From Maribacter antarcticus DSM 21422 (lineage in GTDB: Bacteria > Bacteroidota > Bacteroidia > Flavobacteriales > Flavobacteriaceae), in NCBI RefSeq assembly GCF_000621125.1, contig NZ_JHZC01000007.1, forward strand, positions 124,001 to 188,000: DNA of 64,000 nt, written 5' to 3'. The notes under the pieces are model-generated. The model did no database searches. It was given only the letters and a program-made list of their open reading frames with translations, and had not been told where the DNA came from. A program made the position numbers and the translations under genes. The stretch's first letter is position 1, and each line of letters starts with the position of its first letter. Positions 39,402-55,150 of the stretch are shown piece after piece.

Positions 39402-40255
39402 AAGGAATTATATTAGCTGCGGGATTAGGAACACGTCTTGCGCCACTTACATTGGTAATAAGTAAACAACTCATGCCTGTTTATGACAAACCAATGATAT
39501 ACTACCCATTATCAACTCTCATGTCTGCTGGAATTACAGAAATTTTGATTATCACTACGGAGACAGATGCACCTTTATTCGTAAATTTATTAGGCGATGG
39601 ATCTCAGTTTGGCTGTTCATTTAGTTATGCCAAGCAAAAGACTCCTAAAGGTTTAGCAGACGCATTTATTATTGGAGAAGATTTTATTGGAACAGATAAA
39701 GTTGCTCTAATTTTAGGTGATAATATTTTTTATGGTTCAGGATTATCAAATATATTACTCTCAAATACTAACCCAGAAGGTGGTGTTATTTATGCTTATC
39801 ATGTTAATGACCCTAAACGGTATGGAGTAGTAGATTTTGATATTTATGGTAATGCTACCTCAATCCAAGAGAAGCCTAATTCTCCAAAATCAAACTACGC
39901 AGTACCTGGCATCTATTTTTATGATAATAAAGTGGTTAATATCGCAAAAAAGATACGTCCGAGTAAAAGAGGGGAGTTAGAAATTACCGATGTAAATAAA
40001 GAATATCTTAGAAATGGGAATCTAAAAGTTAGTGTTATGGATAAAGGTATAGCTTGGTTAGATACAGGTACTTTTACTTCTTTGATGCAGGCTTCCCAAT
40101 TTGTACAAGTAATTGAGGAAAGACAAGGCTTGAAAATTGGTTCAATTGAGCAAGTAGCTTATGAAATGGGTTTTATATCTAAGGACCAATTGCATAGGTT
40201 GGCGGAACCATTAAGGAAAAGTGGATATGGTGAATACCTACTTCAACTCCGTTAA
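39398..40255 (+). CDS. rfbA: Glucose-1-phosphate thymidylyltransferase
   Basis: 285 residues, typical RmlA. It makes dTDP-glucose from dTTP and glucose 1-phosphate. The signature [16 protein letters not shown] is at the N-terminus, followed by [20 protein letters not shown] and [19 protein letters not shown], then [13 protein letters not shown]. It is co-transcribed with rfbB through an ATGA overlap. A 286-bp gap follows before pseB, which contains a new promoter and an imperfect AT hairpin just after the stop. Confidence 0.95.
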
Positions 40256-40465
40256 ACTAAAAAATTATAGTTTTTTATAGTATAAAGGTTTATTCAAAAA
40301 GTTGAACTAATCTGGTCAACTCTGTGATTTGCCAACTGTTCACTTATTTCCGTTTTGAATGATTTTCTTTGGTTTAAAGAAATAAAAATCATGAGATAAT
40401 TCAGAGTTACTATTTGAAAAACAAAAAAAACCTTTTACGGAACATTCTGCAAGAGAATTTGTAGC

Positions 40466-40495
40466 TTGTTCCTTACTGGAATTATCGTATTTTTG
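40466..40495 (+). promoter_or_regulatory. Promoter of the pse operon
   Basis: TTG at 40466-40468, a 19-bp spacer, and TATTTTTG at 40488-40495, both exact matches to the Flavobacterium consensus. The ATG of pseB is 46 nt further on. This marks a second transcription unit inside the polysaccharide cluster. Confidence 0.65.
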
Positions 40496-40541
40496 TTAAT
40501 ATACCAACAGCGATGTTTTTACAACAAACTAATTATTACAA

Positions 40542-41555
40542 ATGAATTTTAAAGGTAAATCACTTCTAATAACCGGGGGTACAGGTTCTTTAGGAAAGGC
40601 ATTAACAACACATATTTTATTTAAATATCCAGAAATAAGAAGGCTAATTATTTTTTCTAGAGACGAACAAAAACAATTTGTAATGGCTCAAGAATTTCCA
40701 ATAAATGAATTTCCTCAGATACGATTTTTTATAGGAGACGTACGAGATAAAAGTAGACTTGCAAGGGCATTTAAGGGTGTAGATTACGTTATTCATGCTG
40801 CTGCAATGAAACATGTGCATTTAGCGGAGTATAACCCAGAAGAGTGTATTAAAACAAATATTGGCGGCGCCCAAAATGTAGTTGATGCATGTTTTTCTAC
40901 GAATGTTGAAAGAGTGGTTGCTTTATCTACAGATAAAGCTTGTGCGCCAATAAATTTGTATGGAGCCACCAAGTTAACTTCAGATAAATTATTTGTAGCC
41001 GCAAATAATATTAAAGGAGATAGCCCTATTCGTTTTTCTGTTGTTAGATATGGAAATGTTATGGGCTCTAACGGTTCAGTAATTCCTTTTTTTATTAACA
41101 AGAAAAAAGAGGGCTCATTACCTATAACCGACCCTAACATGACACGTTTTAATATTTCGCTTCAGGGCGGTGTAGATATGGTAATGTACGCTTTAGAAAA
41201 CGCATGGGGCGGAGAAATATATATCCCCAAAATTCCATCTTACAGGATAATGGACGTAGCAAAGGCAATTGGACCAGATTGTAAAAAACCTATTGTTGGG
41301 ATTAGACCAGGAGAAAAGGTACACGAAGAAATGATTACCACTTCCGACTCATATTACACTTATGATTTAGGTAGATATTATGCAATATTACCCGCTACCC
41401 ATAAGTGGACGACAGATGACTTTATAACAACATTTAAAGCCAAAAAAGTAGCTGAAAATTTTAGTTACAATTCAGGAGAAAATGATGTTTGGGAAACTGT
41501 AGAAAGTTTAAGATCGCTTATCAAGGAGCATGTAGATTCAAATTTTGAGGCATAG
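40542..41555 (+). CDS. pseB: UDP-N-acetylglucosamine 4,6-dehydratase (inverting)
   Basis: 337 residues, SDR family of the PseB/FlaA1 type. It makes UDP-2-acetamido-2,6-dideoxy-beta-L-arabino-hex-4-ulose, the first pseudaminic-acid intermediate. Motifs are SLLITGGTGSLGKAL (nucleotide binding), HAAAMKHVHLAEYNPEECI (PseB-typical, with the Met-Lys catalytic environment), STDKACAPINLYGATK (catalytic Y-x3-K) and the terminal GEKVHEEMITTSDS. PseC follows after 2 bp. Confidence 0.95.
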   Translation: MNFKGKSLLITGGTGSLGKALTTHILFKYPEIRRLIIFSRDEQKQFVMAQEFPINEFPQIRFFIGDVRDKSRLARAFKGVDYVIHAAAMKHVHLAEYNPEECIKTNIGGAQNVVDACFSTNVERVVALSTDKACAPINLYGATKLTSDKLFVAANNIKGDSPIRFSVVRYGNVMGSNGSVIPFFINKKKEGSLPITDPNMTRFNISLQGGVDMVMYALENAWGGEIYIPKIPSYRIMDVAKAIGPDCKKPIVGIRPGEKVHEEMITTSDSYYTYDLGRYYAILPATHKWTTDDFITTFKAKKVAENFSYNSGENDVWETVESLRSLIKEHVDSNFEA

Positions 41556-41557
41556 TA

Positions 41558-42706
41558 ATGAGTAATAAAATTATACCCTACGGACGGCAGAATATAGAGC
41601 AAGACGACATAGATGCTGTAGTTTCTACTTTAACTGGAGACTTTTTAACACAGGGTCCAAAGGTTAAGGAATTTGAAGATAAGTTTGCAGCTTATGTGGG
41701 ATCCAAGTTTGCGGTAGCTGTTTCTAATGCTACTGCTGGTTTGCACATAGCCGTTGCCGCTTTAGGATTAAAAAAAGGAGAACGTGTTATTACTAGTCCA
41801 ATTACATTTGCAGCTTCGGCCAACTGTGTAAGATATTCTGGAGGAGAGGTTTGGTTTGCAGATATTAATCCAAATTCTTATTTGTTATCGTTCGATAGTA
41901 CAAGACAACTTATAGAAAGCAAACCTAAAGGGTTTTTTAAAGGTATAATTCCAGTAGATTTTGCAGGGTTACCAGTAAACCTAGAAGATTTTCATGAATT
42001 AGCTAAAGAACACGGCCTTTGGGTTATTGAAGACGCAGCCCATGCCCCAGGAGGTTATTTCACAGATTCTAATAATCTTAAACAAAATTGCGGTAATGGC
42101 ATTTATTCGGATCTTACTGTATTTTCTTTTCATCCAGTAAAACATATTGCCTGTGGTGAAGGTGGTATGGTGACAACCAATTCCGAGCTACTTTATAACA
42201 GCTTGTGTTCGCTACGAAGTCACGGAATCGTAAAGGAAAATATGAAGGAAAACCACGGCGGATGGTATTATGAAATGCAAGAGTTAGGTTATAACTATAG
42301 GCTTACAGATATTCAATCTGCTTTAGGAATTACTCAGCTTGCAAAAAATAATGATGGTTTAGCAAGAAGAAATGAAATAGCGGATAATTATAAAAAGGTT
42401 TTTAGAGGTAAGGTAAAATTCCAAAGTTTACCAAAAAATACTTTAAATGCACATCACTTATTTGTTATAGAGGTTGATGATAGAAAAGCGTTGTACGAAT
42501 TCTTAAGGACAAAAAATATTTTTGCACAAATACACTACATCCCTGTTCATAAACTTCCTTATTACAAGGAGATTGGATATTCAGGAGCAGACTTAAGCCA
42601 TTCAGAACACTATTACTCTAAGTGTATTAGTTTGCCTATGTATCCAAGCTTAACGAACGATGAGCAGGATTACGTAATTAATTGTGTTCATGAATTTTAT
42701 AGCTAA
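41558..42706 (+). CDS. pseC: UDP-4-amino-4,6-dideoxy-N-acetyl-beta-L-altrosamine transaminase
   Basis: 382 residues, DegT/DnrJ/EryC1 PLP-dependent aminotransferase. It aminates the PseB product. Features: GRQNIEQDDIDAVVSTL, GDFLTQGPKVKEFE, the ITFAASANCVRYSGG segment, EDAAHAPGG, and the PLP lysine in FSFHPVKHIACGEGG near residue 197. Its length and proximity to pseB (2-bp gap) make the PseC assignment more likely than other DegT families. Confidence 0.93.
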   Translation: MSNKIIPYGRQNIEQDDIDAVVSTLTGDFLTQGPKVKEFEDKFAAYVGSKFAVAVSNATAGLHIAVAALGLKKGERVITSPITFAASANCVRYSGGEVWFADINPNSYLLSFDSTRQLIESKPKGFFKGIIPVDFAGLPVNLEDFHELAKEHGLWVIEDAAHAPGGYFTDSNNLKQNCGNGIYSDLTVFSFHPVKHIACGEGGMVTTNSELLYNSLCSLRSHGIVKENMKENHGGWYYEMQELGYNYRLTDIQSALGITQLAKNNDGLARRNEIADNYKKVFRGKVKFQSLPKNTLNAHHLFVIEVDDRKALYEFLRTKNIFAQIHYIPVHKLPYYKEIGYSGADLSHSEHYYSKCISLPMYPSLTNDEQDYVINCVHEFYS

Positions 42707-42772
42707 TACTTTTTAATTCAGCCGAATTTATTTTTTTTCAATTGTATATTATTTGTCGAAACACAGGTATAA

Positions 42773-43096
42773 GTGATTAATATTATTGGTTGCCATTTAA
42801 TCTTTCTAAATAGCATGGAAACCAGAATATATTTTACTTGTAATGGGTCATATCTAAGAAACTATATTTTAAATTACCCAGAGGAGGAGACAAAGAAAAA
42901 GTTGAATGATGTGTGGTTAGAAAATTCAAATATGGACGATATTTATTTTTTGGATTATAGTAATAATGATAAATTTAATTTGAAAGACTATTATGATTAC
43001 ATACATCTAAATAGTAGGGGAGCGGACAAATTTTCTATTATTTTAAACCAAGACATATCAAATTTATTAAAAGACAAAAATGCTTCTAAATTCTAA
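42773..43096 (+). pseudogene. C-terminal remnant of an SGNH/DUF1574-like hydrolase
   Basis: An open frame of 107 codons from a GTG, or 93 from the ATG at 42815. It contains DIYFLDYSNNDKFN followed by YYDYIHLNSRGADKF, the block V pattern (D-x2-H-L) of SGNH hydrolases with the family's catalytic Asp and His. The N-terminal GDS block and the whole front part are missing, and only ~110 bp separate it from pseC, so this looks like the residue of a deletion. A small separate protein is possible but less likely. It overlaps the following aldo/keto reductase gene by 17 bp. Confidence 0.6.
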
Positions 43097-43931
43097 AATA
43101 GGAATCGGCACTGTTCAATTTGGATTAGATTATGGGATTTCAAATAACCAAGGAAAGACTTTAGTTCATGAAGTATCAAAAATTTTAGAGTTTGCTATAA
43201 ATAACAATGTTAATTATCTTGACACAGCATATGCATATGGCACTGCTGAGGAGGTAATTGGAAATTTTAACTTAGATAAGTTTAAGATTATTTCTAAATA
43301 TGTATCTAATTCAAAAAATACACTAGAAGAACAAATAGCAACTTCTTTAACAAGATTAAATCAAAAATCAGTTTATGGATATTTAGCCCATAGACCGTTA
43401 GATTTGATAGATAACAATAAAGAAAATTGGAAAAAGTTACAGCAACAAAAAGCTAGTGGTACAATAACCAAAATAGGCGCCTCTTTTAACACGATAGCAG
43501 AAATAGAGAAGGTGTTAGATTCTGGTATACAGTTAGATATAATTCAAGTTCCATATAATTATTTAGATTCGAGGTTTGAAAATTATATGAAGATTTTATC
43601 TAAGCAGGGTTGTGAAATACACACTCGCTCAACATTTTTACAAGGTCTCTTCTTTTGTAATATAGATAAACTGGATTCGTTTTTTAATACAGTTAAACCT
43701 ATTTTAAAAGAAATCCAAAAGTTTGAAAACCTATCTGGTTGTTTGTTGCAATATGTTTTAGAAAAAGAATATGTATCCGTAGCAAATATTGGTGTTAATA
43801 ATTTAGAACAATTAAAGAATAATTTGTTGTTAATTGGAAAGGAGAACAACAGATTACTTAACACGGATTTTAAAATTAAATCTGAAATATTAATGCCTTC
43901 TAATTGGCCTAAAAAAATAAACAATGACTAG
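43080..43931 (+). CDS. Aldo/keto reductase family protein
   Basis: 283 residues with the AKR TIM-barrel pattern. The catalytic tetrad is visible: Asp and Tyr in NYLDTAYAYGTAEEVIG (~49-65), Lys in KIISKY (~78-83), His in GYLAHRPLDL (~104). The N-terminus IGIGTVQFGLDYGIS resembles AKRs that occur in nonulosonate clusters. It probably oxidises or reduces a sugar or acyl intermediate; the substrate is unknown. It overlaps the next SDR gene by 8 bp, implying a shared operon. Confidence 0.82.
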   Translation: MLLNSKIGIGTVQFGLDYGISNNQGKTLVHEVSKILEFAINNNVNYLDTAYAYGTAEEVIGNFNLDKFKIISKYVSNSKNTLEEQIATSLTRLNQKSVYGYLAHRPLDLIDNNKENWKKLQQQKASGTITKIGASFNTIAEIEKVLDSGIQLDIIQVPYNYLDSRFENYMKILSKQGCEIHTRSTFLQGLFFCNIDKLDSFFNTVKPILKEIQKFENLSGCLLQYVLEKEYVSVANIGVNNLEQLKNNLLLIGKENNRLLNTDFKIKSEILMPSNWPKKINND

Positions 43932-44718
43932 CATATTTGATTTAACCGATAAAGTTATTATTGTGACTGGAGGTTACGGCCACTTGGGCAGTGGAATAGT
44001 AAACTCTTTGTTAGGCTTTGGCGCTAAAGTTATTGTTGCGGGAAGGACAAAAGAAAAATATCAAGAAAAGTTTAAAGACATTAAAAAGGCTAATTTGTTT
44101 TTCGAAAAATTTGATATTAGTCAAAGTGGTGAGGATTTCATGAGTCAATTCAAGGAATTTAAAAGTAAATACGGATCTATTGATGTCGTATTTAATAATG
44201 CACATTTTGCTAGAGGGTCTAACCAAGAAAATATGTCAGATGAAGACTGGAGCTATACCATGGAGGGTGTATTGGCATCTGTCCAAAAGAGCATAAAGGC
44301 TTCCATTCCAATAATGAGAGAGCAAAAGCATGGTAAAATTATTAATATAGCGTCCATGTATGGACATATAAGTCCAAACTTTAAACGATTGTATGAAGGT
44401 GATGATTGTGAAAAGTACACTAATCCGCCACATTATGGAGCAGCAAAGGCAGGTGTAATACAGCTTACCAAGTATTATGCTGTTCTATTAGGTAAAGAGA
44501 ATATTTATGTTAATGCTATTTCTCCCGGACCTTTCTCTAAGGACCAAATTCAAGAAGATAATCCTGCTTTTATAAAAAAATTAGAGCAATCTAACCCATT
44601 AAATAGAATTGGACAACCTAAAGATTTAGCAGGGATAAGTGTATTATTAAGCAGTGAGGCTTCTAACTTTATAACAGGACAGAATTTTGCTGTTGATGGT
44701 GGTTGGACAATTTGGTAA
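43924..44718 (+). CDS. Short-chain dehydrogenase/reductase
   Basis: 264 residues, classical SDR. The cofactor motif TGGYGHLGSGIV is near residue 16, followed by FNNAHFARG. The catalytic Ser is in NIASMYGHI and Y-x3-K in HYGAAKAGVIQL; the C-terminus is the usual SSEASNFITGQNFAVDGGW. The sequence is closest in style to SDRs of polysaccharide and nonulosonate clusters, but the substrate cannot be told. It sits between the AKR and the SpsF-like gene, both overlapping or nearly so. Confidence 0.85.
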   Translation: MTSIFDLTDKVIIVTGGYGHLGSGIVNSLLGFGAKVIVAGRTKEKYQEKFKDIKKANLFFEKFDISQSGEDFMSQFKEFKSKYGSIDVVFNNAHFARGSNQENMSDEDWSYTMEGVLASVQKSIKASIPIMREQKHGKIINIASMYGHISPNFKRLYEGDDCEKYTNPPHYGAAKAGVIQLTKYYAVLLGKENIYVNAISPGPFSKDQIQEDNPAFIKKLEQSNPLNRIGQPKDLAGISVLLSSEASNFITGQNFAVDGGWTIW

Positions 44719-44722
44719 GATT

Positions 44723-45547
44723 ATGAAAATAGGAGCAGTAATACAAGCTAGGTATGATTCTACAAGGCTTCCGGGTAAAGTTTTAATGAACTTGCCTTTT
44801 AACGAGAATAAAACAATTTTAAATCAAATTGTAAATCGTTTACAAAAGGTAAAGTTAATTGATGAAATTATAATTGCTACAAGTAATAACCCAAAAGATG
44901 CCGTAATAGAAACTTTTGCACGAGAGCAAAGAATAAAATGTATTAGAGGAGACGAAAACAATGTTCTTAAAAGATTTGTGCAAGTTATTAAAGAAGAGAA
45001 TTTAGATGTGGTAATCAGAATCACTGGCGATAACCCCGTTGTTTTGATTGATATTCTAGAAAAAGCCTTACAACAACATTTAAAATCGAATTTTGATTAT
45101 ACTAGAAACTTAAACCTTCCTTATGGAACCAGTTTTGAAATCGTCAATGCCAATGTACTTGAAAAAGTTAGTCAAGAGCCCGATTTGAGTGAAAGCGATA
45201 AAGAACATGTCACAATTTATATAAAAAATAACAGAAAGACTTTCTCTATTTTAGAACTTGATCACAAGGTTAATTATTCTGATTTTAGGTTTACAGTAGA
45301 CTATCCATCAGATTACGGCGCTATGAACATTATATATCAGTATCTTTCTACTTTAGATTACAATTATAATTTGAAAACTTTGTTAGAGTTTCTTGAGGAT
45401 AACAGTTGGATTCAAGGTATAAATAATTCTAATCTTCAAAAAAAACAAGGCAACAACCTTGAAGAAGAATTAGAAATTGCCGTTGGAGTTTTGGGTAGTT
45501 TAGAATTGAATAGAGTGGTCTTATTTTTAAAAGATAAATTAGGTTGA
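44723..45547 (+). CDS. SpsF/NeuA-like cytidylyltransferase family protein
   Basis: 274 residues from the ATG at 44723; a longer open frame from 44687 adds twelve residues with no family support. The N-terminus MKIGAVIQARYDSTRLPGKV is the SpsF signature of nucleotidyltransferases related to CMP-KDO/CMP-NeuA synthetases, followed by IIIATSNNPKD, RGDENNVLKRF and ITGDNPVV. It is the only candidate in the cluster for activating the nonulosonic acid (PseF step), although canonical PseF proteins are shorter and start differently. The last ~60 residues form an extra C-terminal extension. Confidence 0.8.
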   Translation: MKIGAVIQARYDSTRLPGKVLMNLPFNENKTILNQIVNRLQKVKLIDEIIIATSNNPKDAVIETFAREQRIKCIRGDENNVLKRFVQVIKEENLDVVIRITGDNPVVLIDILEKALQQHLKSNFDYTRNLNLPYGTSFEIVNANVLEKVSQEPDLSESDKEHVTIYIKNNRKTFSILELDHKVNYSDFRFTVDYPSDYGAMNIIYQYLSTLDYNYNLKTLLEFLEDNSWIQGINNSNLQKKQGNNLEEELEIAVGVLGSLELNRVVLFLKDKLG

Positions 45548-45631
45548 AAAAAAATCACTGTTTTAACATTGATAAAGAAACAAAGCAGAATTTTAGAACA
45601 TAATGGTTACTAAATTAAAATAAGCGATAAA

Positions 45632-46456
45632 ATGGAATCCTTTTTTTTTGTTCCGGCATCTAAAATTAATAAGATACTAGAATTCCGCGGTTTAGAAATT
45701 AGTGAATTCATAATTGATTTAGAAGATGCCATAAAGGCTTCTCAGAGAAATGCTTTTTTTTTGGAAATAGACAATTTTGAACACTCTAGAGATTGTTATC
45801 TAAGGGTTCCCTTGCATAGTTTAGTAAAACCTATGGAATTGGATTTATCTTTAATAAAGTCATTCATAAACAAAGGATTTAATAAATATGTACTGCCAAA
45901 AATAAATTCGGTAACAGAATTGGAGCTGGTTTTAAAAGTTTTGTACAATGATTTCTTAGATGTTATCTTGCTAGTAGAAACACCTATGCTATATTTAGAG
46001 CTCTTAACCATGACTTTTAAGAATTCAAAAAAACTCACAGGAATTGGATTGGGTAGTCATGATTTTATGTCAATCATTGGAGGTAAGCATCAATTAGAAA
46101 ACTTAGAGCTTATACGCCAAAACATATTATATTTAGCAAGGGCTTGGGACATTACTGCGATAGATATTGCCTCTATGGAGATGAATAATGATGATGATTT
46201 TAAGAAAGAAATTGTTGATGGGCATGATAAGGGTTATGATGCCAAATTCATTATTCATCCTAAACAGCACAAAATACTTAACAGCTTTCAATTTTATACA
46301 GAAGAAGAATATTTATTTGCTCTTAGAGTTAATAAGGTGGTATCTAAATTGGAGAATAATAAGGAGTTTAATCCTATAATCATAGATGGGAAGATAATAG
46401 AGCAACCTCATTTAAATAGGATACAAAAAATTATAAAAAATTATAAAAAACTATAA
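45632..46456 (+). CDS. HpcH/HpaI aldolase/CitE-like lyase (first copy)
   Basis: 274 residues, CitE/malyl-CoA-lyase-like TIM barrel. The start SFFFVPASKINKIL and FIIDLEDAIKASQR give the family's conserved acidic residues near 30. Later features are ILLVETPMLYLEL (metal-binding Glu), the GLGSHDFMSIIGG segment, and DAKFIIHPKQHKILN. CitE-type enzymes join or split acetyl- or propionyl-CoA with glyoxylate or related 2-oxo acids. The substrate here is unknown. It is followed by a MaoC-like gene (8-bp gap) and a second CitE-like gene, an unusual trio for a polysaccharide cluster. Confidence 0.82.
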   Translation: MESFFFVPASKINKILEFRGLEISEFIIDLEDAIKASQRNAFFLEIDNFEHSRDCYLRVPLHSLVKPMELDLSLIKSFINKGFNKYVLPKINSVTELELVLKVLYNDFLDVILLVETPMLYLELLTMTFKNSKKLTGIGLGSHDFMSIIGGKHQLENLELIRQNILYLARAWDITAIDIASMEMNNDDDFKKEIVDGHDKGYDAKFIIHPKQHKILNSFQFYTEEEYLFALRVNKVVSKLENNKEFNPIIIDGKIIEQPHLNRIQKIIKNYKKL

Positions 46457-46464
46457 AATATAAC

Positions 46465-46920
46465 ATGAAAGCGTTTGAGTTAGGAAACTATTTTGAGGAT
46501 TTTAAGGTTGGTGAGATTATAAATCACAGCACCTCTAAGACTATTTTTGAGAGTGATAATAATTTGTTCAGTCTTTTAACAATGAACCATCATCCGGTAC
46601 ACACCAATTTAGATTTTGTTAAAGATCATCAGCATAAAAAAATATTAGTAGTAGGAACTTTAGTTTTTAGTTTGGCAGTTGGAATTACTGTTCCAGATAT
46701 CAGTGGCAAGGCAATTGCTAATCTCGAATATGAAACAGTAAAGCATTTGGGACCAGTCTTTATTAACGACACTATTTATGCGAAAACCAAAATTCTAGAT
46801 AAATGGATTACAAAATCTAATAATACCAGAGGTATTGTTTACGTAGAAACAATAGCTTACAATCAAAAAAAGCAACCCGTATTAAGTTTTAGAAGAAAAG
46901 TGCTAATTCCTAAAAAATAA
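46465..46920 (+). CDS. MaoC-like (R)-enoyl-CoA hydratase/mesaconyl-CoA-hydratase-type protein
   Basis: 151 residues, single hot-dog domain. The opening FEDFKVGEIINHSTSKTI and DNNLFSLLTMNHHPVHTN match the MaoC/mesaconyl-CoA-hydratase style, in which D and H of the ...N-x2-P-[IVL]-H motif are catalytic; here they read DNN and HPVH. The later FSLAVGITVPDISGK and NLEYETVKHLGPVF are also family-like. It could hydrate an unsaturated acyl-CoA such as mesaconyl-CoA, whose product a CitE-type lyase would split or, in reverse, build. It lies between two CitE-like genes with gaps of 8 and 5 bp. Confidence 0.82.
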   Translation: MKAFELGNYFEDFKVGEIINHSTSKTIFESDNNLFSLLTMNHHPVHTNLDFVKDHQHKKILVVGTLVFSLAVGITVPDISGKAIANLEYETVKHLGPVFINDTIYAKTKILDKWITKSNNTRGIVYVETIAYNQKKQPVLSFRRKVLIPKK

Positions 46921-46925
46921 CTCTA

Positions 46926-47810
46926 ATGGACAAGATGTTAATGAGGAGTCTAATGTTTGTTCCTGCTCATAGTGAAAAATTAATGACAAGTGCCACTAAA
47001 CTATCCGCAGACGTTTTATTGCTAGATATTGAGGACTCCGTACAACCTTTAAAAAACAAACAAATAGCTCGGGATATGGTACTTAAATATCTTGAAGAGG
47101 GGAAATTTAAAGGCAAACATATTTTTCCAAGGATTAACGACAGAGAAAGTGGGCAATTGTTAAAGGATGTCACCCAACTTTCAGTAAAAGGAGTAGATGG
47201 GTTTATGTACCCAAAAGCAAAAACAGGAAAGGATATCTATTTTTTTGATAAACTTTTAGAAACCATAGAATATGAAAAAGGAATAGAAACGGGAACATTT
47301 AAAATTATACCTTTAATAGAGACTGCTTCTGCAGTAATGAATGTCCAAGAAATTTGTTCTGTTTCTAAAAGAGTGATAGCCGTAGCATACGGCTCAGAAG
47401 ACTTTATAACCGATTTAGAAGGAATACATGACAATGAACATTTGAGTTTGTTTACGCCAAGAGCATTAATAGCTATGGGAGCAAGAGCGCAAAATGTAAT
47501 TCCTATCGACACAGTTCATGTACGAGTAAAAGATTTAGTGGATTTGGAGGAGAACTTAAAGCTTTCTGTGAAGCTCGGATTTGAGGGAATGCTGGTTTTA
47601 AATCCTATAGAACTAGAATTGGTTCACCAATACTATTCTCCAACTCTTGATCAAGTAAAACATTCCCAAACTATTTTAGAATTAGATGAGGAGGCAAAGA
47701 AAGACGGGAAAGGAGTAGCGATAATAAAGGGTAAGTTTATTGGCCCGCCATTTGTAGCAAAAGCAAAAAAAATATTAAAAAAGCACAAACTAGTACTTAA
47801 TAAGAAGTAA
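46926..47810 (+). CDS. HpcH/HpaI aldolase/CitE-like lyase (second copy)
   Basis: 294 residues. Features: RSLMFVPAHSEKLM, VLLLDIEDSVQPLK (conserved acidic residues), HIFPRINDRESG, LIETASAVMNVQEI, the AYGSEDFITDLEG segment, and GFEGMLVLNPIELELVH. It is closer than the first copy to standard CitE/malyl-CoA-lyase-like proteins. Two diverged CitE paralogues flanking a MaoC hydratase suggest one acyl-CoA pathway, perhaps a two-subunit lyase or two sequential reactions. Its stop overlaps the acyltransferase gene by one base. Confidence 0.85.
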   Translation: MDKMLMRSLMFVPAHSEKLMTSATKLSADVLLLDIEDSVQPLKNKQIARDMVLKYLEEGKFKGKHIFPRINDRESGQLLKDVTQLSVKGVDGFMYPKAKTGKDIYFFDKLLETIEYEKGIETGTFKIIPLIETASAVMNVQEICSVSKRVIAVAYGSEDFITDLEGIHDNEHLSLFTPRALIAMGARAQNVIPIDTVHVRVKDLVDLEENLKLSVKLGFEGMLVLNPIELELVHQYYSPTLDQVKHSQTILELDEEAKKDGKGVAIIKGKFIGPPFVAKAKKILKKHKLVLNKK

Positions 47811-48466
47811 TGAAAAAGTTAATTATTATCGGAGGTTATGGCAATGGTACTGTTGTTCAATCAACAGTGGAAGATATAAATCAGGTAAAGCCAGAATGGG
47901 AGCTTTTAGGTTTTTTAAATGACAACGAAAAGAAGCCTATTAATGGCTATCCTGTTTTAGGGGGAATAGATAAAGTAACGGTAAATAAATATTTATTAGA
48001 TGACACTGTTTATTTTTTTTACAGCCTCATATCTGTTAAACTAAATCATAAATTTTTATTTAAATTACTTGACCTAGAAATACCAAAAAAGAAATTTGCT
48101 ACATTAATCCATCCAACCGCAGTGGTGTCTAAACATGCTGAAATTGGTCATGGTGTTTGTATTCAACCTTTTGTGTCAATAGGTCCAAATACAACCATAG
48201 GTAATTTTGTGCAAATTTTTGCACAGTCTTTAGTAGGTCATGGCGCTAAACTAGACGATTATAGTTATGTTGCCAACAATGCTTGTATAGGAGCAGATGT
48301 ACACCTAAAGGAAGGTGCCTATTTAGGCACCAATGCAACTACTTTAGAATATGTTACTCTAGGTAAATGGTCTATAACAGGTATAGGGGCGGTAGTATTA
48401 AAGGATGTAGATGATTATACAAAAGTGGTAGGAAGTCCTGCTAGAGTTATTGGTTCAACAAAATAA
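47810..48466 (+). CDS. NeuD/PglD-like sugar N-acyltransferase
   Basis: 218 residues. An N-terminal nucleotide-sugar-binding Rossmann-type domain (KLIIIGGYGNGTVVQSTV, then LGFLNDNEKKPINGYPVLGG) is followed by left-handed beta-helix hexapeptide repeats (HPTAVVSKHAEIGHGVCIQP ... VGHGAKLDDYSYVANNACI ... GSPARVIG). Catalytic His is likely in VGHGAKL. It probably transfers an acyl group from acyl-CoA to an amino sugar. No GNAT-type PseH is seen in the cluster, so this may be the acyltransferase for the 4-amino group. It follows the CitE trio with a 1-base overlap. Confidence 0.85.
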   Translation: MKKLIIIGGYGNGTVVQSTVEDINQVKPEWELLGFLNDNEKKPINGYPVLGGIDKVTVNKYLLDDTVYFFYSLISVKLNHKFLFKLLDLEIPKKKFATLIHPTAVVSKHAEIGHGVCIQPFVSIGPNTTIGNFVQIFAQSLVGHGAKLDDYSYVANNACIGADVHLKEGAYLGTNATTLEYVTLGKWSITGIGAVVLKDVDDYTKVVGSPARVIGSTK

Positions 48467-48472
48467 ACTTTA

Positions 48473-49477
48473 TTGAATAAAAAAATACTTTTTAGGGTTG
48501 ATGCTGGTGAAAAGGTTGGCTTAGGCCATTTTTTTAGAAGTTATAATTTAGCTCAAGCTTTAGCGGAGAAAGCATATTCGGTTACTTTTGCACATGCAAA
48601 ATCTACCTTTTGGAATAGTATTAAGAACTTTCAATTTCCACATTTAGAATTGGATGGACAAAATATTAATAATGAAACAATTAATATTTGCTTAAATAAC
48701 CAGTATGATTTGCTTTATGTTGATGGTATTTTGGATTTTGAAACTGAAAGTTTCAAGAAACTCAAAAATAGAACTAAAGTTATTTTTTATCAAAATTTAA
48801 GTGAATCTAGACATTTCGCAGATATTTATATTTTACCGTCCATTCACCAAGAGGCATCCTATTTTTTAAAATTTGACAAACTAAAAACAAAAATTTATCA
48901 AGGGCTTGAATATTTTACATTTAATGCTAAAATTAACAAGTTAGCCCCAAAACAAATTAACCTTAATAACGATTTAAGTGAAATTGGAATTATATGTGGA
49001 GGAAGTGACCCAAGAAATGTAACGAGTAAGCTGTACGATTTAATCGATTTTCCAAAATGGAATACTATTACATTTAATTTCTATTTGGGTGAAAATTATA
49101 TGTACTCAAATAGTATCCCTCAACCATACTTCATGAATGTTAATTTTTTACCCTATGACATGAATGTAATATATAATAGCGATTTGCTTATAGCTGCATT
49201 TGGAGTAAGTACATATGAATTTATGGCCTTAGGTATGCCCATCATAAGTATTGGTCATCAAGAGTCCAATGCACATGCTTCTAAAGTGTTAAATGAAAAA
49301 ACGAAGGCTATTTTTCATTTAGGTTTAATAGATTTGTTAAAGGCAGACACCCTAAATGAAACGATTGGCGAACTTGTAAATGACACGACCATCCGTAAAT
49401 TATTAAGCGAGAAATCTAAAGTAATATTAGATTTTAAAGGAATAGATAGAATAGTAGAAATTATAGAGCGTATTTGA
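48473..49477 (+). CDS. pseG: UDP-sugar hydrolase of pseudaminic-acid synthesis (PseG-like)
   Basis: 334 residues, GT-B-like hydrolase. It removes UDP from UDP-2,4-diacetamido-2,4,6-trideoxy-altrose. The start uses TTG at 48473, 6 nt after the stop of the preceding gene; no in-frame ATG lies between that stop and the conserved start ILFRVDAGEKVGLGHFFRS, where GLGHFFR carries the catalytic-type His. The later IICGGSDPRN, MPIISIGHQESNAHA and FEFMALG-like segment are as in PseG. pseI follows after a 1-bp gap. Confidence 0.85.
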   Translation: MNKKILFRVDAGEKVGLGHFFRSYNLAQALAEKAYSVTFAHAKSTFWNSIKNFQFPHLELDGQNINNETINICLNNQYDLLYVDGILDFETESFKKLKNRTKVIFYQNLSESRHFADIYILPSIHQEASYFLKFDKLKTKIYQGLEYFTFNAKINKLAPKQINLNNDLSEIGIICGGSDPRNVTSKLYDLIDFPKWNTITFNFYLGENYMYSNSIPQPYFMNVNFLPYDMNVIYNSDLLIAAFGVSTYEFMALGMPIISIGHQESNAHASKVLNEKTKAIFHLGLIDLLKADTLNETIGELVNDTTIRKLLSEKSKVILDFKGIDRIVEIIERI

Positions 49478-49478
49478 A

Positions 49479-50489
49479 ATGATAAATCCAGAAAAAGTAT
49501 TTGTAATAGCAGAGTTATCCGCCAATCACAATAATGATTTAAACCTAGCAAAAAAAACTATTGATGCCATAGCGGAATCAGGAGCAGATGCAGTAAAGGT
49601 ACAAACATACACAGCAGATTCACTAACGCTAAATGTGGATAACGAGCACTTTGGACCTAGAAAAGATGGCTTGTGGAAAGGAAAAACCTTATATGAGCTT
49701 TTTACGGAAGGGAGCTTGCCCTATGAGTGGCATCCAGAGTTAAAAAAATACTCAGAATCTTTAGGTTTGATTTTTTTTTCATCACCTTTTGATAGGGAAG
49801 GAGTAGACTTTTTGGAGTTATTAAATGTAGGTCTCTATAAGATTGCATCTCCTGAAATAACGGACATACCTTTAATTTCATATGTTGCATCAAAAGGTAA
49901 ACCTATGATTATGTCTACGGGTCTTGCAAGCTTAGCAGACATACAACTAGCTGTTGACACTTGTAGGAAAGAGGGAAATAATGATATTACCCTATTAAAA
50001 TGCACATCTGAGTATCCCGCAACACCAGACATGGCAAATTTATTAACTATACCTAATCTTAAAGAGACTTTTAACGTTAAGGTAGGATTGTCTGATCATA
50101 GTTTTGGGAGCACAGTACCAGTAGTAGCAGTATCACTTGGAGCTACTGTTGTAGAAAAGCATTTTGTTTTAAACAGAGAAAAAGGAGGTATTGATGCAGC
50201 TTTTTCAATGGAGCCCCATGAGTTTAAACACATGGTTTCATCAGTTAAAGATGCAAAAGATGCGCTAGGTAGTGTTTCTTATAATTTAACAGATAGAAAT
50301 AAGAATAGAAGACGATCCATCTTTATTTATAAAGATGTTAAGAAAAACGATAAAATTTCTATTGAGAATGTTAAATGTATTAGGCCTGGAAACGGTCTAC
50401 ATCCAATGTATTACAATGAAATTATAAATAAAAAATTTAGTCAAGATTTAAAAGCTGGAACACCCTTGAGTTGGGAATTGTTATGCTAA
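49479..50489 (+). CDS. pseI: Pseudaminic acid synthase
   Basis: 336 residues, NeuB family. An N-terminal TIM barrel begins FVIAELSANHNNDLNLAKKT, with ADAVKVQTYTADSLT, FFSSPFDREGVDFLE, and MSTGLASLADIQ. A C-terminal SAF (antifreeze-like) domain runs from ~280 (NRRRSIFIYKDVKKNDKI ... RPGNGLHPMYY). It condenses the altrose sugar with phosphoenolpyruvate to make the nonulosonic acid. The ANHN and KVQTYTAD motifs are PseI-like, though legionaminate synthases are similar; pseB/pseC/pseG context favours pseudaminic acid. Confidence 0.92.
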   Translation: MINPEKVFVIAELSANHNNDLNLAKKTIDAIAESGADAVKVQTYTADSLTLNVDNEHFGPRKDGLWKGKTLYELFTEGSLPYEWHPELKKYSESLGLIFFSSPFDREGVDFLELLNVGLYKIASPEITDIPLISYVASKGKPMIMSTGLASLADIQLAVDTCRKEGNNDITLLKCTSEYPATPDMANLLTIPNLKETFNVKVGLSDHSFGSTVPVVAVSLGATVVEKHFVLNREKGGIDAAFSMEPHEFKHMVSSVKDAKDALGSVSYNLTDRNKNRRRSIFIYKDVKKNDKISIENVKCIRPGNGLHPMYYNEIINKKFSQDLKAGTPLSWELLC

Positions 50490-51727
50490 ATAAAAAAAAT
50501 CTTGAAAAGGCACTTACACTTGCTTGTAGACTTCTGGGATTAGGGTCAAGATTTCTATTAACTTTTTTAATTACCAAGGAAATATCCTTAGAGTTTCAAG
50601 GCGAATATACTTTAGTCACAACAACCGTTGCGTTATTGATAATATTCTTTGGATTTGATTTTTATGTTTATTCAAATAGGTTAATTATTAAAGGGAACGA
50701 GCGTAAGATTTTTTACTTTAAAAACTCTCTTATTTTTTACTCTTTTTCCTATGTCTTGTTACTTCCTATTATTTGGACGATATATAATTATGTAACTTTT
50801 ATTGATTTAGGTTCTTTTTGGGTCTTATATTTTTTGATAATTTTTGAGCATCTAGGACAAGAATTTTTTAGGACCTATATTTCTTTACGAAATCCATTAT
50901 TTGCAAATATTTTGCTTTTTATTAGAACAGGTATTTGGGCAGGTATTATTGTGATTAATTTAGTTTTTAATCAAGGTTTTACCATAAGTATTGCTGAAAT
51001 TTTGCAATTATGGTTATGCTTTGCTTTTTTAACATCTGTTCTCGGCATTTGTTTCTATCCTGGAATAACTGGATTTTTTAGCGCTCAAGTAGATTTTTCT
51101 TGGATAAAGAAGGGCATTGGTGTAGGCTTAACTATGTTTTTATCCACTATTTGTTTAAAGATAATAGAATATTCAGATCGGTATTTAATTACTTACTTTT
51201 TAGGTAAAGTAGATTTAGGTGTTTATGCCTTATATTTCCAATTGGCTAATCTAATTAATGTAATGGTGTTTACAATGTATATATCATTTGTATATCCAGA
51301 TATCATTCAAGCTGTACATGAGAAAGACTTAACAGGAATTAATAAGGGAATGAAAACGATAAAAAATAAAACATTCTTGTTAATAGGTATCTATGCTATT
51401 TGCTCAATAGTATTCATTCCTTTTTTTCTAAATTACATAGGTAAAGAGGAACTATATGCAAACGTTCCAATTTTTTATATTTTATTGACAGGTTGCTTAT
51501 TGTTAAACTTAAGTTTTTCTTATCATTATTTGATAGTGGGGTATGAAAAGGAGAGTCAGATTTTAAAAGCAACACTCTTAGCTTGCGTTTTTAATGTAGC
51601 CGCCAATATCATACTCATTCCTCTTTTAGGAATATACGGCGCTGCTATCTCGCTTTTAATAGGTAATATTTGTCTTTTTATTTTTAAAAGAAAGTATAGT
51701 AACAAAATAATAGCACAATGGAAATAA
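50483..51727 (+). CDS. Polysaccharide flippase (Wzx-like)
   Basis: 414 residues from the ATG at 50483, which overlaps pseI by 7 bases; a TTG four codons upstream is less likely. About 12 membrane helices are visible as alternating hydrophobic blocks (TTTVALLIIFFGFDFYVYS, TMFLSTICLKII ... YSDRYLITYFLGKVDLGVY), the MATE/Wzx-like fold. It would flip undecaprenyl-linked repeat units across the inner membrane. The YSDRY segment resembles the SDR/YLI motif region typical of Wzx proteins. Confidence 0.8.
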   Translation: MLNKKNLEKALTLACRLLGLGSRFLLTFLITKEISLEFQGEYTLVTTTVALLIIFFGFDFYVYSNRLIIKGNERKIFYFKNSLIFYSFSYVLLLPIIWTIYNYVTFIDLGSFWVLYFLIIFEHLGQEFFRTYISLRNPLFANILLFIRTGIWAGIIVINLVFNQGFTISIAEILQLWLCFAFLTSVLGICFYPGITGFFSAQVDFSWIKKGIGVGLTMFLSTICLKIIEYSDRYLITYFLGKVDLGVYALYFQLANLINVMVFTMYISFVYPDIIQAVHEKDLTGINKGMKTIKNKTFLLIGIYAICSIVFIPFFLNYIGKEELYANVPIFYILLTGCLLLNLSFSYHYLIVGYEKESQILKATLLACVFNVAANIILIPLLGIYGAAISLLIGNICLFIFKRKYSNKIIAQWK

Positions 51728-52740
51728 AAAATATTATCATAGTGTTGACGCCGTTTCAGAAGGATACTATGGAGCGATTATTTGAAAACTTATTCAAACA
51801 AAAAAGTACATTAATCTACCATAGCGAGCATACATCATTTAAAACGTACAACAGTGAGATACTTACAATTAATAATTTCAAATTTTCCAAAAATAGGTTA
51901 CTCAATTATAAATATTACTTAGAATGCAAAAAAGCAATAGCTATAATTAGAAAAGAGATAAATGGTTTAGAAGCCAAATATTCGTTTCATGAAAAACTCA
52001 ATATGTATATTGGTAGTGAAAAAGATATTTTCACACAAATGTTTTTACAAACTCCTTTTATAAACAGTAAATTAAATGACTTAATAGCTATAGAAGAGGG
52101 CTTAGGCTACTATAAATATAAATCTAATTGGAAAATAACATTGACAAAGTATGTTTATCAATGTTTGACTCCACTACTTTTTAAGGAAAAATTAAAATAC
52201 ATATATACATTAGGGCTTTATCCTAGAATTAATAAAGTCTATGCAAGATTACCACAGATGCTCCCTATCAAAAGGGAAAATGTAGAGTACTTAAGTATTG
52301 ATGCAACTAAAAGAAAAGTAACTAAAAAATATAATGCTCATTCCAATAAAATTTTGATATTTTCATTACCTAATCAAGATTATGATCTTAACGAAGAAGA
52401 AAAATTTAGAATATTTTCTAAATTAATAAATTCATTTGTAGGAAAAGCAATTATAATTAAACCCCACCCTAGGGAGAATGCACTCTTATTTGATAGATTT
52501 TCTAATAATAAAGATGTTCAGATATTAAGGAAGGATGAAATTGGCGAGAGCATTGATTATTTTGAATTTGAGAAGATTTTTAATTTTTCATCTTCAGTGA
52601 TTATTGATATTTTAACAACAGGGTATCCTAAAAAGGCAGTGCATACCATTTTCATAAAAGGAAGTTCAAATTTGATTTTTTTCAAAGAGACAACTTGTAT
52701 TAAATTAATAGAACTAGAAAATTATAATTTTGAAAGTTAA
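51718..52740 (+). CDS. Sialyltransferase-like (GT52/polysialyltransferase-type) glycosyltransferase
   Basis: 340 residues, no signal peptide. Bacterial sialyltransferase-like motifs are present in order: an acidic-acidic-Gly motif in LIAIEEGLGYYKY (~134-140), an HP motif in IIIKPHPREN (~245-250), and a serine pair in NFSSSVIIDIL (~288-296). These CMP-sugar-binding hallmarks are shared by families such as GT38, GT52 and GT80. In this cluster it is a strong candidate for the transferase of CMP-pseudaminic acid or a related CMP-nonulosonate. It overlaps the flippase gene by 10 bases. Substrate unproven. Confidence 0.65.
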   Translation: MEIKNIIIVLTPFQKDTMERLFENLFKQKSTLIYHSEHTSFKTYNSEILTINNFKFSKNRLLNYKYYLECKKAIAIIRKEINGLEAKYSFHEKLNMYIGSEKDIFTQMFLQTPFINSKLNDLIAIEEGLGYYKYKSNWKITLTKYVYQCLTPLLFKEKLKYIYTLGLYPRINKVYARLPQMLPIKRENVEYLSIDATKRKVTKKYNAHSNKILIFSLPNQDYDLNEEEKFRIFSKLINSFVGKAIIIKPHPRENALLFDRFSNNKDVQILRKDEIGESIDYFEFEKIFNFSSSVIIDILTTGYPKKAVHTIFIKGSSNLIFFKETTCIKLIELENYNFES

Positions 52741-53869
52741 TTTTGGTATCAATTTTTTCTTAAAAATAGTATTGGCATACCCAATTCTACTTGGACTATT
52801 ATTTTTTTTTAAAATACAGCCATTTTTTATTACTGCCCCCTATTTCTTTATTGTTTTACTGCTCTTGTCTATAAATATTGGCAAAAAAGACAATTTGATT
52901 TTTAAGAAATCTAATAGCCTTAATATTATCCTTACGCTAATTCTATTTGGAATTTCAGTCCTAAACTACTCAACTATCAGATATAGCTTAGTGATCTTAT
53001 TTTCGTTTTATGTGATGATATTTCATCTGTTTATAATAGTGTTGTCGAAAAACTCCGTTTGTATTGACGAAAAGGTAGTTTTTAAGTTTTTTATTTGCTA
53101 TTTATTATTGTCCGTGCCATTTCTGTTTTTAGACCAAGGACATATGGAAATTGGAAATCGTTTTGTTGGCTTCACAGCTTCACCAACTACTTTCTCAGGA
53201 ATATTAGTAGTTATTTTTATACTTGTAGATGCTACACTAAAGCCATTTAGCAGAACAAGGCTTATGCTCTTATTTATAGTTCTATTACTAGTTTATCTTT
53301 CTAAGACTAGATTGGTTCTTTTATTTTTAATAGCATACCCATTTTTAGTTTTTTTTATTAAAAAAAAAGCAATGAGTTTGGGTTTAGTTTTTTTAGCTGT
53401 TTTTACAACATTGTTTTTTGTTTACGGACTTTATGGTTTGGTAATAGAGAGATTCCCGGAATTAATCACCTTGAGATATGAAGATGCAAGGGATGCTTCT
53501 TTTGGTTTAAGATACCAGATGTATAAGGTAGTTGAATTAGATTTTTATTCTGGTACTATTTGGGAAATGTTATTTGGTAAAGGGAACGAGTATTCTAGAC
53601 TTTTAATTATTGATGAAATAGGGAAAGACTTTTTTCCGCATAATGATTTTATCAGAATCATTAATGATTGGGGTATTGTAGGGGCTTCAGTGTTTTTTAT
53701 ATTTTTGTATCGAATATCAACAAAGAATATTACTGGTTTACTAGTTTCACTGTTATATTTAATTTTATGGTATTCAAATATGATATTTAATTTATTTCTT
53801 ATTTCTATTCTTCTAATAGCCTCTTTTCAGTTAGTTTCAAAAGAAAATTTAGAATTTAATAGGTCTTAG
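52730..53869 (+). CDS. O-antigen polymerase-like membrane protein (Wzy candidate)
   Basis: 379 residues, about ten membrane helices, and a TTG start at 52730 overlapping the previous gene by 11 bases (no suitable upstream ATG; the first in-frame Met lies far inside). A large loop between late helices contains EDARDASFGLRYQMYKV and LFGKGNEYSR, then FFPHNDFIRIINDWGIVG, a polymerase/ligase-like pattern with PHNDFxxxxNDxGxxG. It is probably the repeat-unit polymerase or a ligase. The neighbouring gene has the same kind of pattern, so which is which cannot be told. Confidence 0.65.
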   Translation: MKVNFGINFFLKIVLAYPILLGLLFFFKIQPFFITAPYFFIVLLLLSINIGKKDNLIFKKSNSLNIILTLILFGISVLNYSTIRYSLVILFSFYVMIFHLFIIVLSKNSVCIDEKVVFKFFICYLLLSVPFLFLDQGHMEIGNRFVGFTASPTTFSGILVVIFILVDATLKPFSRTRLMLLFIVLLLVYLSKTRLVLLFLIAYPFLVFFIKKKAMSLGLVFLAVFTTLFFVYGLYGLVIERFPELITLRYEDARDASFGLRYQMYKVVELDFYSGTIWEMLFGKGNEYSRLLIIDEIGKDFFPHNDFIRIINDWGIVGASVFFIFLYRISTKNITGLLVSLLYLILWYSNMIFNLFLISILLIASFQLVSKENLEFNRS

Positions 53870-55150
53870 ATGAAACTTAATCAGAGATATTTATCTAGAA
53901 AAAAAATACAAAAAATAAGGAAAAACGTTTTTCCTTTGTTTGCATATCTATGTGCTTTTTCTTTGGCTCTTTCACCAATATTTACATCGCTATCGCTGCT
54001 ATTATTTGTTTTAGTAGCGCTGATGAATATTCATAAAATAGATTTAAAAAAGAAGGAGTTTCTTTCTATTGGATGCTTTTCTTTTCTTTTTATTTTATAT
54101 GTTTTTGGGTTATTTACTACCGATTTTTTACCCAGAGCAATAGAATTAATAATAAGAATATCTCCAATATTTTTTATTCCTCTACTTATAGTACTTACAC
54201 AAGCTTACAATAAAATTAATTATACAAAGTTTAGACTTTCATTTTGTATTGGAATATTTATATCTTGTTTGATATCATTTGGGTATGGTTTTGTTCGATA
54301 TATTTTATATGATGATATAAAGTATTTATTTTATTTTGAATTTACATCATTATTTGATCTTCATCCAACATATTATGCGTTGTATATTATTACTGCTATG
54401 TGGTTTGTTAATGAATCTAGTGTTAAGGTCCAGTTTAAAATAATAGGATATAGTGTTTACTTTTGTTGCCTTGTATTTCTTCAGTCAAAAATTGGAATAG
54501 TTTTATTTATTTTGTTGCTCTTATATACAATATTAAATAGCGATAATAAGGGTAAAATAGTATGGTTTGTTTTTGGATTTTCATCAATCTGTATACTAAT
54601 GGCGTTCACTTTCATTAACAAAGAAAGCCGAATTAATGAGTTGTTTAAAACAAGAAATAGTTTAGACGTTGGAACAAATAATGAAGATGGTATATCGCAA
54701 CGTTTTTGGCTTTGGAATACTGCTATAAGTCAATTAAATGAACGGCCACTCACTGGCTTTGGATTAGGTGCGAAAGAGAAGCTTTTTAGTTGGAAAGTTC
54801 AAAAAGATATTTTGGAATCAAATTATGGGTACGCCCACAAGAAAGCTCTAAAGTCAATTTCAAACTTAAACCTTCATAACAATTATATACAATTAGCTTA
54901 TGAGTTTGGGGCAGTTGGTCTTATTTTATATCTTATTAGTATTATTTATATCGTAAAAATTGCAAGGACTAGTAATAATGTATGTTTCCTTGTAATTTAT
55001 ACTTTTTTTTTAATCGTTCTTTTTGTGGAGGTTGCTTTAAACCGTCAGATGGGAATTTATTTTTTCGCTTATATTTTAGGAATACTTTTTTTTGAGCCAA
55101 GAAAGAATACTAATAAAGATGAGAACGAAGTATGTATACTAACAAGTTAA
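53870..55150 (+). CDS. O-antigen ligase/polymerase-like membrane protein (Wzy_C)
   Basis: 426 residues with ~11 membrane helices. The Wzy_C-type large loop has RPLTGFGLGAKEKLF and then LNLHNNYIQLAYEFGAVGLI, where H-N-x-Y-I-x-x-x-x-x-x-G is the family signature. It would polymerise the repeat or attach the finished polymer to its acceptor. The start ATG directly follows the previous stop. The gene ends 19 bases into the next frame. Confidence 0.78.
   Translation: MKLNQRYLSRKKIQKIRKNVFPLFAYLCAFSLALSPIFTSLSLLLFVLVALMNIHKIDLKKKEFLSIGCFSFLFILYVFGLFTTDFLPRAIELIIRISPIFFIPLLIVLTQAYNKINYTKFRLSFCIGIFISCLISFGYGFVRYILYDDIKYLFYFEFTSLFDLHPTYYALYIITAMWFVNESSVKVQFKIIGYSVYFCCLVFLQSKIGIVLFILLLLYTILNSDNKGKIVWFVFGFSSICILMAFTFINKESRINELFKTRNSLDVGTNNEDGISQRFWLWNTAISQLNERPLTGFGLGAKEKLFSWKVQKDILESNYGYAHKKALKSISNLNLHNNYIQLAYEFGAVGLILYLISIIYIVKIARTSNNVCFLVIYTFFLIVLFVEVALNRQMGIYFFAYILGILFFEPRKNTNKDENEVCILTS

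Follow-up and report, generated by a model that had tools for sequence, protein, structure and literature searches.

A CitE–MaoC–CitE gene cassette in a pseudaminic acid-type cluster of Maribacter antarcticus probably supplies an acyl-CoA for N-acylation of amino sugars

In the itaconate pathway the enzymes Ich and Ccl (RipB and RipC) interconvert itaconyl- or mesaconyl-C4-coenzyme A (CoA), (S)-citramalyl-CoA, and acetyl-CoA plus pyruvate, as described in the part of PMC12290011 cited here. A MaoC-type hydratase paired with CitE-like lyases is likewise found in a 64,000-nucleotide stretch of the genome of Maribacter antarcticus DSM 21422 (contig NZ_JHZC01000007.1, forward-strand positions 124,001 to 188,000), which we call the window and whose numbering is used throughout. 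Here two citE-like genes flank a maoC gene at 45632–47810, inside a gene cluster for a pseudaminic acid (Pse)-type sugar. We consider it likely that this citE1-maoC-citE2 trio is a portable acyl-CoA factory for N-acylation of nucleoside diphosphate (NDP)-amino sugars, and that it takes over the role of PseH in this cluster. The proposal draws on sequence-based evidence, namely gene order, homology, conserved residues, recurrence in other genomes, replacement of another enzyme at the same place, partition of the acyltransferases by cluster type and the lack of a CoA-ligase match in Pse-type loci.

Two further systems are close to this one. The PseH step has the same place in pathway and cluster, i.e. 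N-acylation of the PseC product; here the acting enzyme would be a NeuD-like hexapeptide protein, presumably fed by a dedicated acyl-CoA source, and not a GNAT protein using acetyl-CoA. The 4-amino group of the uridine diphosphate (UDP)-sugar made by PseC becomes N-7 of Pse. In Flavobacterium psychrophilum the O-antigen R-group genes include a PglD-like acyltransferase beside genes predicted for a 3,5-dihydroxyhexanoyl N-acyl group; the cited part of PMC6519341 predicts an acyl carrier protein (ACP) and ketoacyl-ACP synthases for that group, whereas homologues of CitE and MaoC are found in the window. Among the literature matches listed, taken as titles and openings of abstracts, there was no description of such a cassette in a glycan cluster.

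Genes were assigned by their Pfam and NCBIfam profile scores relative to the family cut-offs. The cassette consists of citE1 (45632..46456, 274 aa; PF03328, 48.8 bits), maoC (46465..46920, 151 aa) and citE2 (46926..47810, 294 aa; PF03328, 135.7 bits), and runs into a neuD-like hexapeptide acyltransferase gene (47810..48466, 218 aa). All four genes are on the plus strand and their junctions are 8, 5 and −1 bp, so the open reading frames (ORFs) bear out the arrangement given in the preliminary description. Its naming of two CitE-like proteins and a hydratase resembling mesaconyl-CoA hydratase was also right: both CitEs exceed the PF03328 cut-off (25 bits; the HpcH/HpaI superfamily), and MaoC exceeds those of PF01575 (MaoC_dehydratas, 58.7 bits) and PF19315 (mesaconyl-CoA hydratase, 62.9 bits). 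No other PF03328 match in the 4.85 Mb genome exceeds the cut-off; a third one reaches only 22.5 bits. Among NCBIfam models MaoC matches RipB/Ich (NF038241) best, with 123 bits against a cut-off of 340; the RipC/Ccl model NF038242 (cut-off 375) gives 70.1 bits for CitE1 and 117.1 for CitE2, and both CitEs match the NCBIfam citE model as well, far under its equivalog cut-off. Every one of the 81 MaoC sequences aligned has N41 and H46. The acyltransferase exceeds the Pfam cut-offs for hexapeptide repeats (PF00132, 52 bits) and the PglD N-domain (PF17836, 31 bits) and falls slightly short of the NeuD/PglD/VioB subfamily model TIGR03570 (150.1 bits, cut-off 160.8). At superfamily level the enzymes belong to known folds and families, and they score below the cut-offs of the named equivalogs. 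Compared with RipB and RipC, the window proteins score far under the equivalog cut-offs, lack the lid Asp of the CitE fold and have a second CitE in some loci; moreover, the cassette stands in glycan clusters beside acyltransferases, where the synthetic direction is probable.

The preliminary description placed the trio between pseB/pseC and pseG/pseI. The position is correct. Both pseB (UDP-GlcNAc 4,6-dehydratase, inverting; 40542..41555, +; TIGR03589, 498.5 bits, cut-off 407.75) and pseC (UDP-4-keto sugar aminotransferase; 41558..42706, +; TIGR03588, 450 bits, cut-off 423.5) exceed their cut-offs, as expected for the Pse pathway; the PseC product is the presumed acyl acceptor. The UDP-sugar hydrolase gene that follows neuD (48473..49477, +) is a divergent pseG homologue, its 84.8 bits with TIGR03590 being under the cut-off of 153.55. 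The pseI/NeuB-type nonulosonate synthase gene lies at 49479..50489 (+; PF03102, 291.9 bits; SAF domain, 40 bits). No GNAT match was found in the stretch 37001–55700, and genome-wide the PseH model reaches at most 52.7 bits (cut-off 93.1).

Cassette and Pse genes occur together in eight loci from several Bacteroidota families: the window, L004 (Maribacter), L006 (Flammeovirgaceae), L008 (Bacteroidales), L021 (Bacteroidia), L030 (Flagellimonas), L051 (Allomuricauda) and L092 (the window's family). The order pseC, PseF-type gene, citE1, maoC, citE2, neuD, pseG, pseI is found in six of the eight, where the PseF-type gene was profile-scanned in L006 only (PF02348) and assigned elsewhere by sequence likeness. 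L006 has pseI on the other strand, and pseB and pseC do not appear in its retrieved stretch; its classification as Pse-type relies on pseG and pseI together with a CTP_transf_3 gene (PF02348). The search for conserved linkage with pse genes that the preliminary description had suggested has therefore given a positive answer, with many other amino-sugar clusters in addition. In L092 (about 4860–8780) citE1 and pseG each look interrupted, the cluster being otherwise apparently whole.

These loci were compared with Pse loci that lack the cassette. PseC exceeds its cut-off in 38 of 397 genomes of the window's family, and a close maoC is present in only two of the 38, the window's own and G190 (the source of L092); 15 of the 38 matched maoC at E ≤ 0.001, of which 13 are weak (26–30% identity) and are not counted as the cassette. 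Stretches around pseC were retrieved from the 37 other genomes; 36 are cassette-free and 32 of these carry both pseC and pseI. A GNAT or formyltransferase match lies in the pseC–pseI interval in 31 of the 32, sometimes fused to PseG (30 of 32 without L107, counted on a weak 35-bit GNAT match), and nowhere in the stretch in any of the eight cassette loci (Fisher p 1.2e-7). Seven formyltransferases were confirmed by PF00551. Since PseH exceeds the TIGR03585 cut-off in only two of the 38 genomes, most of the counted GNATs are PseH-like rather than curated PseH. A NeuD-like gene, on the other hand, is present in 8/8 cassette loci against 3/36 cassette-free ones (Fisher p 9.3e-7), and those three are 29–34% identical and lie outside the pseC–pseI interval. 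It is most likely, judging by these gene contents, that the cassette with its own NeuD occupies the slot of the usual N-acylating enzyme, a PseH-like GNAT or a formyltransferase.

Four cassette-free loci were left out of the 32 for having no pseI match: L086 with a GNAT near pseC, L087 with GNAT matches outside the counted interval, L088 with a formyltransferase match outside it, and L109, a 3.5 kb contig with neither. The sole exception among the 32, L110 (4322–10567), encodes an ATP-grasp protein between pseC and pseI and may N-acylate its sugar by another route. Fusions of a PseG-like protein with a GNAT or a formyltransferase occur in L091, L095, L114, L116 and L117 (486–498 aa) and in L093 and L115 (643 and 629 aa); in them the hydrolase is naturally joined to the N-acylating step.

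Across genomes the cassette is patchy yet recurrent. A scan of genome contigs with maoC found 230 relatives, and the best 80 were retrieved as loci. After maoC comes citE2 in 79 of the 80 (as the next gene in 78, as the next but one in one), while L075 stops at the contig end. A NeuD-like hexapeptide gene is located within −3 to +4 genes in 65 loci and a DegT-type aminotransferase at most eight genes away in 60. In a second sample of 394 evenly drawn Bacteroidota genomes, 11 have maoC matches at E ≤ 1e-20, the window's own counted. Seven of the ten others reach at least 59% identity, and in these citE2 is next in 7/7, citE1 upstream in 5/7 and a NeuD-like gene within the 1.5 kb stretch in 5/7. 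The remaining three (L130, L131 and L132, from one genus) have maoC at 38–41% and CitE at only 26–27% identity, and neither citE1 nor NeuD was found in their retrieved stretches; their maoC-citE pairs adjoin a gene for a 473–475 aa protein on the opposite strand. Searching plasmids with maoC yielded 315 records, none of which reaches 60% identity, with 48% as the best among the matches listed.

The cassette is shared with clusters for other amino sugars. In L005, L009 and L012 it precedes a NeuD-like gene, a sugar transferase, an ATP-grasp type gene and a DegT aminotransferase (397 bits against the LegC cut-off of 420 in L009; neighbour genes were checked with Pfam in L005 and L009). We read this arrangement as a UDP-QuiNAc4N (bacillosamine) type module, and the seven non-Pse loci nearest to the Pse ones in the same way. 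Proteins of one further family are encoded near the cassette in 10 of the 80 loci; the family member that was scanned, in L078, is an FdtA-type ketoisomerase (PF05523). The cassette serves bacillosamine-type and FdtA-type clusters too, with other acyltransferases. The median identity of CitE2 is 72% within Pse loci. From these to the seven closest non-Pse loci it is 73%, and to all remaining ones 62%. In the MaoC+CitE2 tree the seven and the eight Pse rows make up a 15-row set (Shimodaira–Hasegawa-like approximate likelihood ratio test, SH-aLRT, 94), and the Pse label needs two changes. The NeuDs behave differently: those of the eight Pse-type loci form a single branch (SH-aLRT 100) in a tree of 67 cassette loci, which holds NeuDs of cassette loci only and cannot by itself tie NeuD to the cassette; that tie comes from the comparison of Pse loci with and without the cassette. 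The eight are 70–94% identical among themselves, whereas their identity to the NeuDs of the other cassette loci does not exceed 51% (median 32%). Both trees are quick searches that carried long-branch warnings. Since NeuD splits by cluster type and CitE2 does not, the pattern is what one would predict for a cassette that makes the donor and a hexapeptide enzyme that recognises the acceptor.

The two CitEs share with the malyl-CoA lyase/CLYBL/CitE superfamily (PF03328) the fold, the metal ligands and the substrate Arg. According to the cited part of PMC3832036, the metal ligands, second-shell acids, Arg and a lid Asp are conserved in the superfamily. CitE2 keeps D34, E36, D37, R69, E132 and D159 in 80 of 80 aligned rows, and CitE1 keeps D29, E31, R58, E116 and D144 in 27 of 27 rows and D32 in 26, so that the Glu/Asp metal (Mg) ligands, the second-shell Glu/Asp and the Arg are present in both. 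The catalytic C-terminal lid Asp of malyl-CoA lyase and CLYBL (Asp299 of MCLR) is absent from both. At this position CitE2 has Gly273, with Gly in 79 of 79 rows that have a letter at the column, and CitE1 has Glu257, with Glu in 27 of 27 rows; five of five solved relatives (5ugr, 5vxc, 4l9y, 1sgj and 4l7z) and the CitEs of the distant loci L130–L132 have Asp. Glu at this place is reported for the malyl-CoA thioesterase group, and Gly goes unmentioned in the part of PMC3832036 cited here. The preliminary description had also suggested modelling the CitE structures, and the AlphaFold2 models do have the fold of solved superfamily members, with the metal ligands and Arg kept in the alignments and the lid Asp missing. 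The CitE2 model (predicted local distance difference test score, pLDDT, 91.3) best matches the malyl-CoA lyase 5ugr (Z 35.2, root-mean-square deviation 2.5 over 291 residues), with 4l9y in a tie (Z 35.0); the CitE1 model (pLDDT 86.8) best matches 5vxs (Z 24.5, 3.0 over 266 residues), with 9nzb in a tie (Z 24.1).

Because neither CitE has the canonical lid Asp, their reactions are not simply readable from central metabolism. This qualifies the central-metabolism chemistry assumed in the preliminary description. With the lid changed, the enzymes may even catalyse some other reaction, and the change raises the mechanistic question of how a CitE fold functions without the lid Asp. A speculative extension, which we hold possible and by no means favoured, is that lid-Gly CitE2 and lid-Glu CitE1 are a new functional pair in the superfamily, perhaps a mixed lid-sharing complex, running a non-canonical C–C bond formation for sugar decoration and yielding an N-acyl group new to bacterial glycans. 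An obligate mixed complex was rejected as unsupported, since citE1 adjoins maoC in only 26 of the 80 loci (the rest of those genomes was not searched) while CitE2 has Gly in 79 of 79 rows. In L052 and L060 citE2 is doubled (copies starting at 8475 and about 9371), both copies having the lid Gly, and an AMP-ligase-like protein is encoded upstream.

In the proposed route a CitE-like enzyme would join acetyl-CoA to a 2-oxo acid, for which pyruvate is the most likely candidate. The product, a hydroxy-dicarboxylyl-CoA, would have its acyl group activated from the outset without a CoA ligase. Whether this group ends up hydroxylated or dehydrated (citramalyl, mesaconyl or itaconyl type) would be set by the MaoC hydratase. 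The NeuD-like enzyme, which we propose to be the N-acyltransferase of the pathway, would place it on the 4-amino nitrogen of the PseC product, and after PseG, PseI and the cytidylyltransferase it would end as the 7-N-acyl group of a Pse-type acid. The direction of the reactions, the identity of the acyl group, the acceptor position and the division of labour between CitE1 and CitE2 are predictions of this scheme. No CaiC-type CoA ligase or CaiB-type CoA transferase was matched in the eight Pse-type loci, and for this reason C–C lyases probably build the acyl-CoA; ligase-like proteins were found in two of the 80 loci, L052 and L060. There was no CoA transferase among the ten cluster genes scanned, the RipA type not having been searched. 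An isocitrate lyase match was lacking in the window genome, and a control search gave matches in 8 of 14 named genomes. With MaoC akin to RipB/Ich and isocitrate lyase unmatched, pyruvate is a better candidate for the 2-oxo acid than glyoxylate, and we accordingly favour a putative acyl of the citramalyl, mesaconyl or itaconyl type over malyl or methylmalyl, which the preliminary description had put forward. Its idea of in-cluster acyl-CoA production for N-acylation gains from the recurring linkage, from cassette plus NeuD in the place of GNAT or formyltransferase and from the lack of a CoA-ligase match in the Pse-type loci. Its acceptor, the nonulosonic acid, should be corrected: from the pathway as we know it, the most likely acceptor is the 4-amino UDP-sugar from PseC and not the finished acid.

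A malyl or β-methylmalyl group, which NeuD would transfer after its synthesis from glyoxylate and acetyl- or propionyl-CoA, would agree with malyl-CoA lyases being the closest solved structures to the CitE2 model, and acetyl-CoA with glyoxylate would yield malyl activated at C4. Malyl groups (4-D-malyl and L-malyl) are reported as N-acyl substituents in marine polysaccharides of Pseudoalteromonas, Shewanella and a Vibrio, and 2-hydroxyglutaryl on a diamino sugar of Flexibacter maritimus, in the cited part of PMC3210612. We nevertheless regard this as unlikely, given that isocitrate lyase was not matched, MaoC is nearest to RipB/Ich, plain malyl-CoA needs no MaoC step and the lid Asp of malyl-CoA lyase is absent. 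That NeuD transfers acetyl from acetyl-CoA while the trio serves otherwise (acid detoxification or a second sugar modification) seems to us quite improbable. The NeuD-like gene is found within a few genes of the cassette in most of the 80 loci, and the cassette-free Pse loci examined have no close NeuD, most of them carrying a GNAT; nevertheless, the nearest relatives of NeuD in the PDB include VioB and perosamine N-acetyltransferase, CitE2 has no lid Asp, and substrates and directions are predictions only.

Two more readings have very little in their favour. An itaconate or citramalate breakdown operon, inserted by chance into a glycan cluster, could account for the likeness to RipB (123 bits) and RipC (117 bits for citE2). 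It is very improbable: the position is conserved across families and orders, the scanned cluster genes include no CoA transferase, the RipB and RipC cut-offs are not reached, and it is the distant L130–L132 (38–41%) that keep the lid Asp and have no NeuD in the retrieved stretch. The preliminary description had itself named a chance-inserted operon with no co-occurrence elsewhere as the outcome that would speak against it; co-occurrence was found, and chance insertion was rejected on recurrence, slot replacement and lid residues. Equally slim is the chance that CitE1 and CitE2 act in an aldol-type step on the carbon skeleton of the nonulosonate and not on an acyl donor. CitE-like enzymes are C–C lyases and PseI also makes a C–C bond; yet the cassette is found in bacillosamine- and FdtA-type clusters as well, and the window PseI is unmatched in the stretches retrieved there.

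Several points weigh against an acyl-CoA factory that replaces PseH. The 80 loci are the closest relatives of the window maoC and not a random draw, citE1 is directly upstream of maoC in only 26 of them, and the cassette is uncommon among PseC-bearing genomes (2 of 38 among the 397 of the family). In the comparison of Pse loci, GNATs and formyltransferases were counted with profiles derived from hits in those very loci, the Fisher test takes no account of shared ancestry, the maoC scan supplied six of the eight cassette loci and the window's family the comparison loci, and stretch lengths differ (cassette loci 11 to 20 kb). The nearest named relatives of NeuD are acetyltransferases, and naming of substrates is weak because CitE1, MaoC, CitE2 and NeuD are under every NCBIfam cut-off shown. 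CitE2, without the lid Asp described for the superfamily in the cited part of PMC3832036, may not be a C–C lyase, and glyoxylate could be obtained by routes other than isocitrate lyase.

If the acyl-CoA factory is real, enzymes of a central-metabolism type have become a plug-in that can equip several surface sugars with an exotic acyl group through a change of acyltransferase alone. The pair maoC-citE2 together with the lid Gly of CitE2 would then be a gene-level predictor of unusual N-acyl groups across Bacteroidota, and would flag Pse clusters that should not be annotated as makers of di-N-acetyl pseudaminic acid. The origin of N-acyl diversity would also become testable in vitro.

Three plus-strand genes that the preliminary description did not mention (43080–45547) separate pseC from citE1 and take the place of the PseF-type gene of the other cassette Pse loci. 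They encode an aldo/keto reductase (43080..43931; PF00248, 90.4 bits), a short-chain dehydrogenase (43924..44718; PF13561, 147.8 bits) and a cytidylyltransferase (44723..45547), which we take to be SpsF-like. The last one has 113.4 bits with PF02348 on the longer listed ORF 44687–45547, within which the ATG start at 44723 was picked. It may be the CMP-nonulosonate synthetase replacing PseF; the PseF-type protein of L004 matches the window genome over only 66 residues, at 44% identity. The aldo/keto reductase probably has a sugar as substrate and is independent of the cassette, since matches to it are also present in cassette-free Pse loci, e.g. L090 and L107. Between pseC and this gene, at 42773–43096, there is a 107-aa ORF with a GTG start and no Pfam match. 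In two cassette-free loci, L112 (11087–14070) and L111 (6473–9502), genes for an aldo/keto reductase, an SpsF-like protein and a class III aminotransferase (PF00202 confirmed for L112, sequence likeness for L111) stand in a row, and by their predicted functions they may make an 8-amino nonulosonate.

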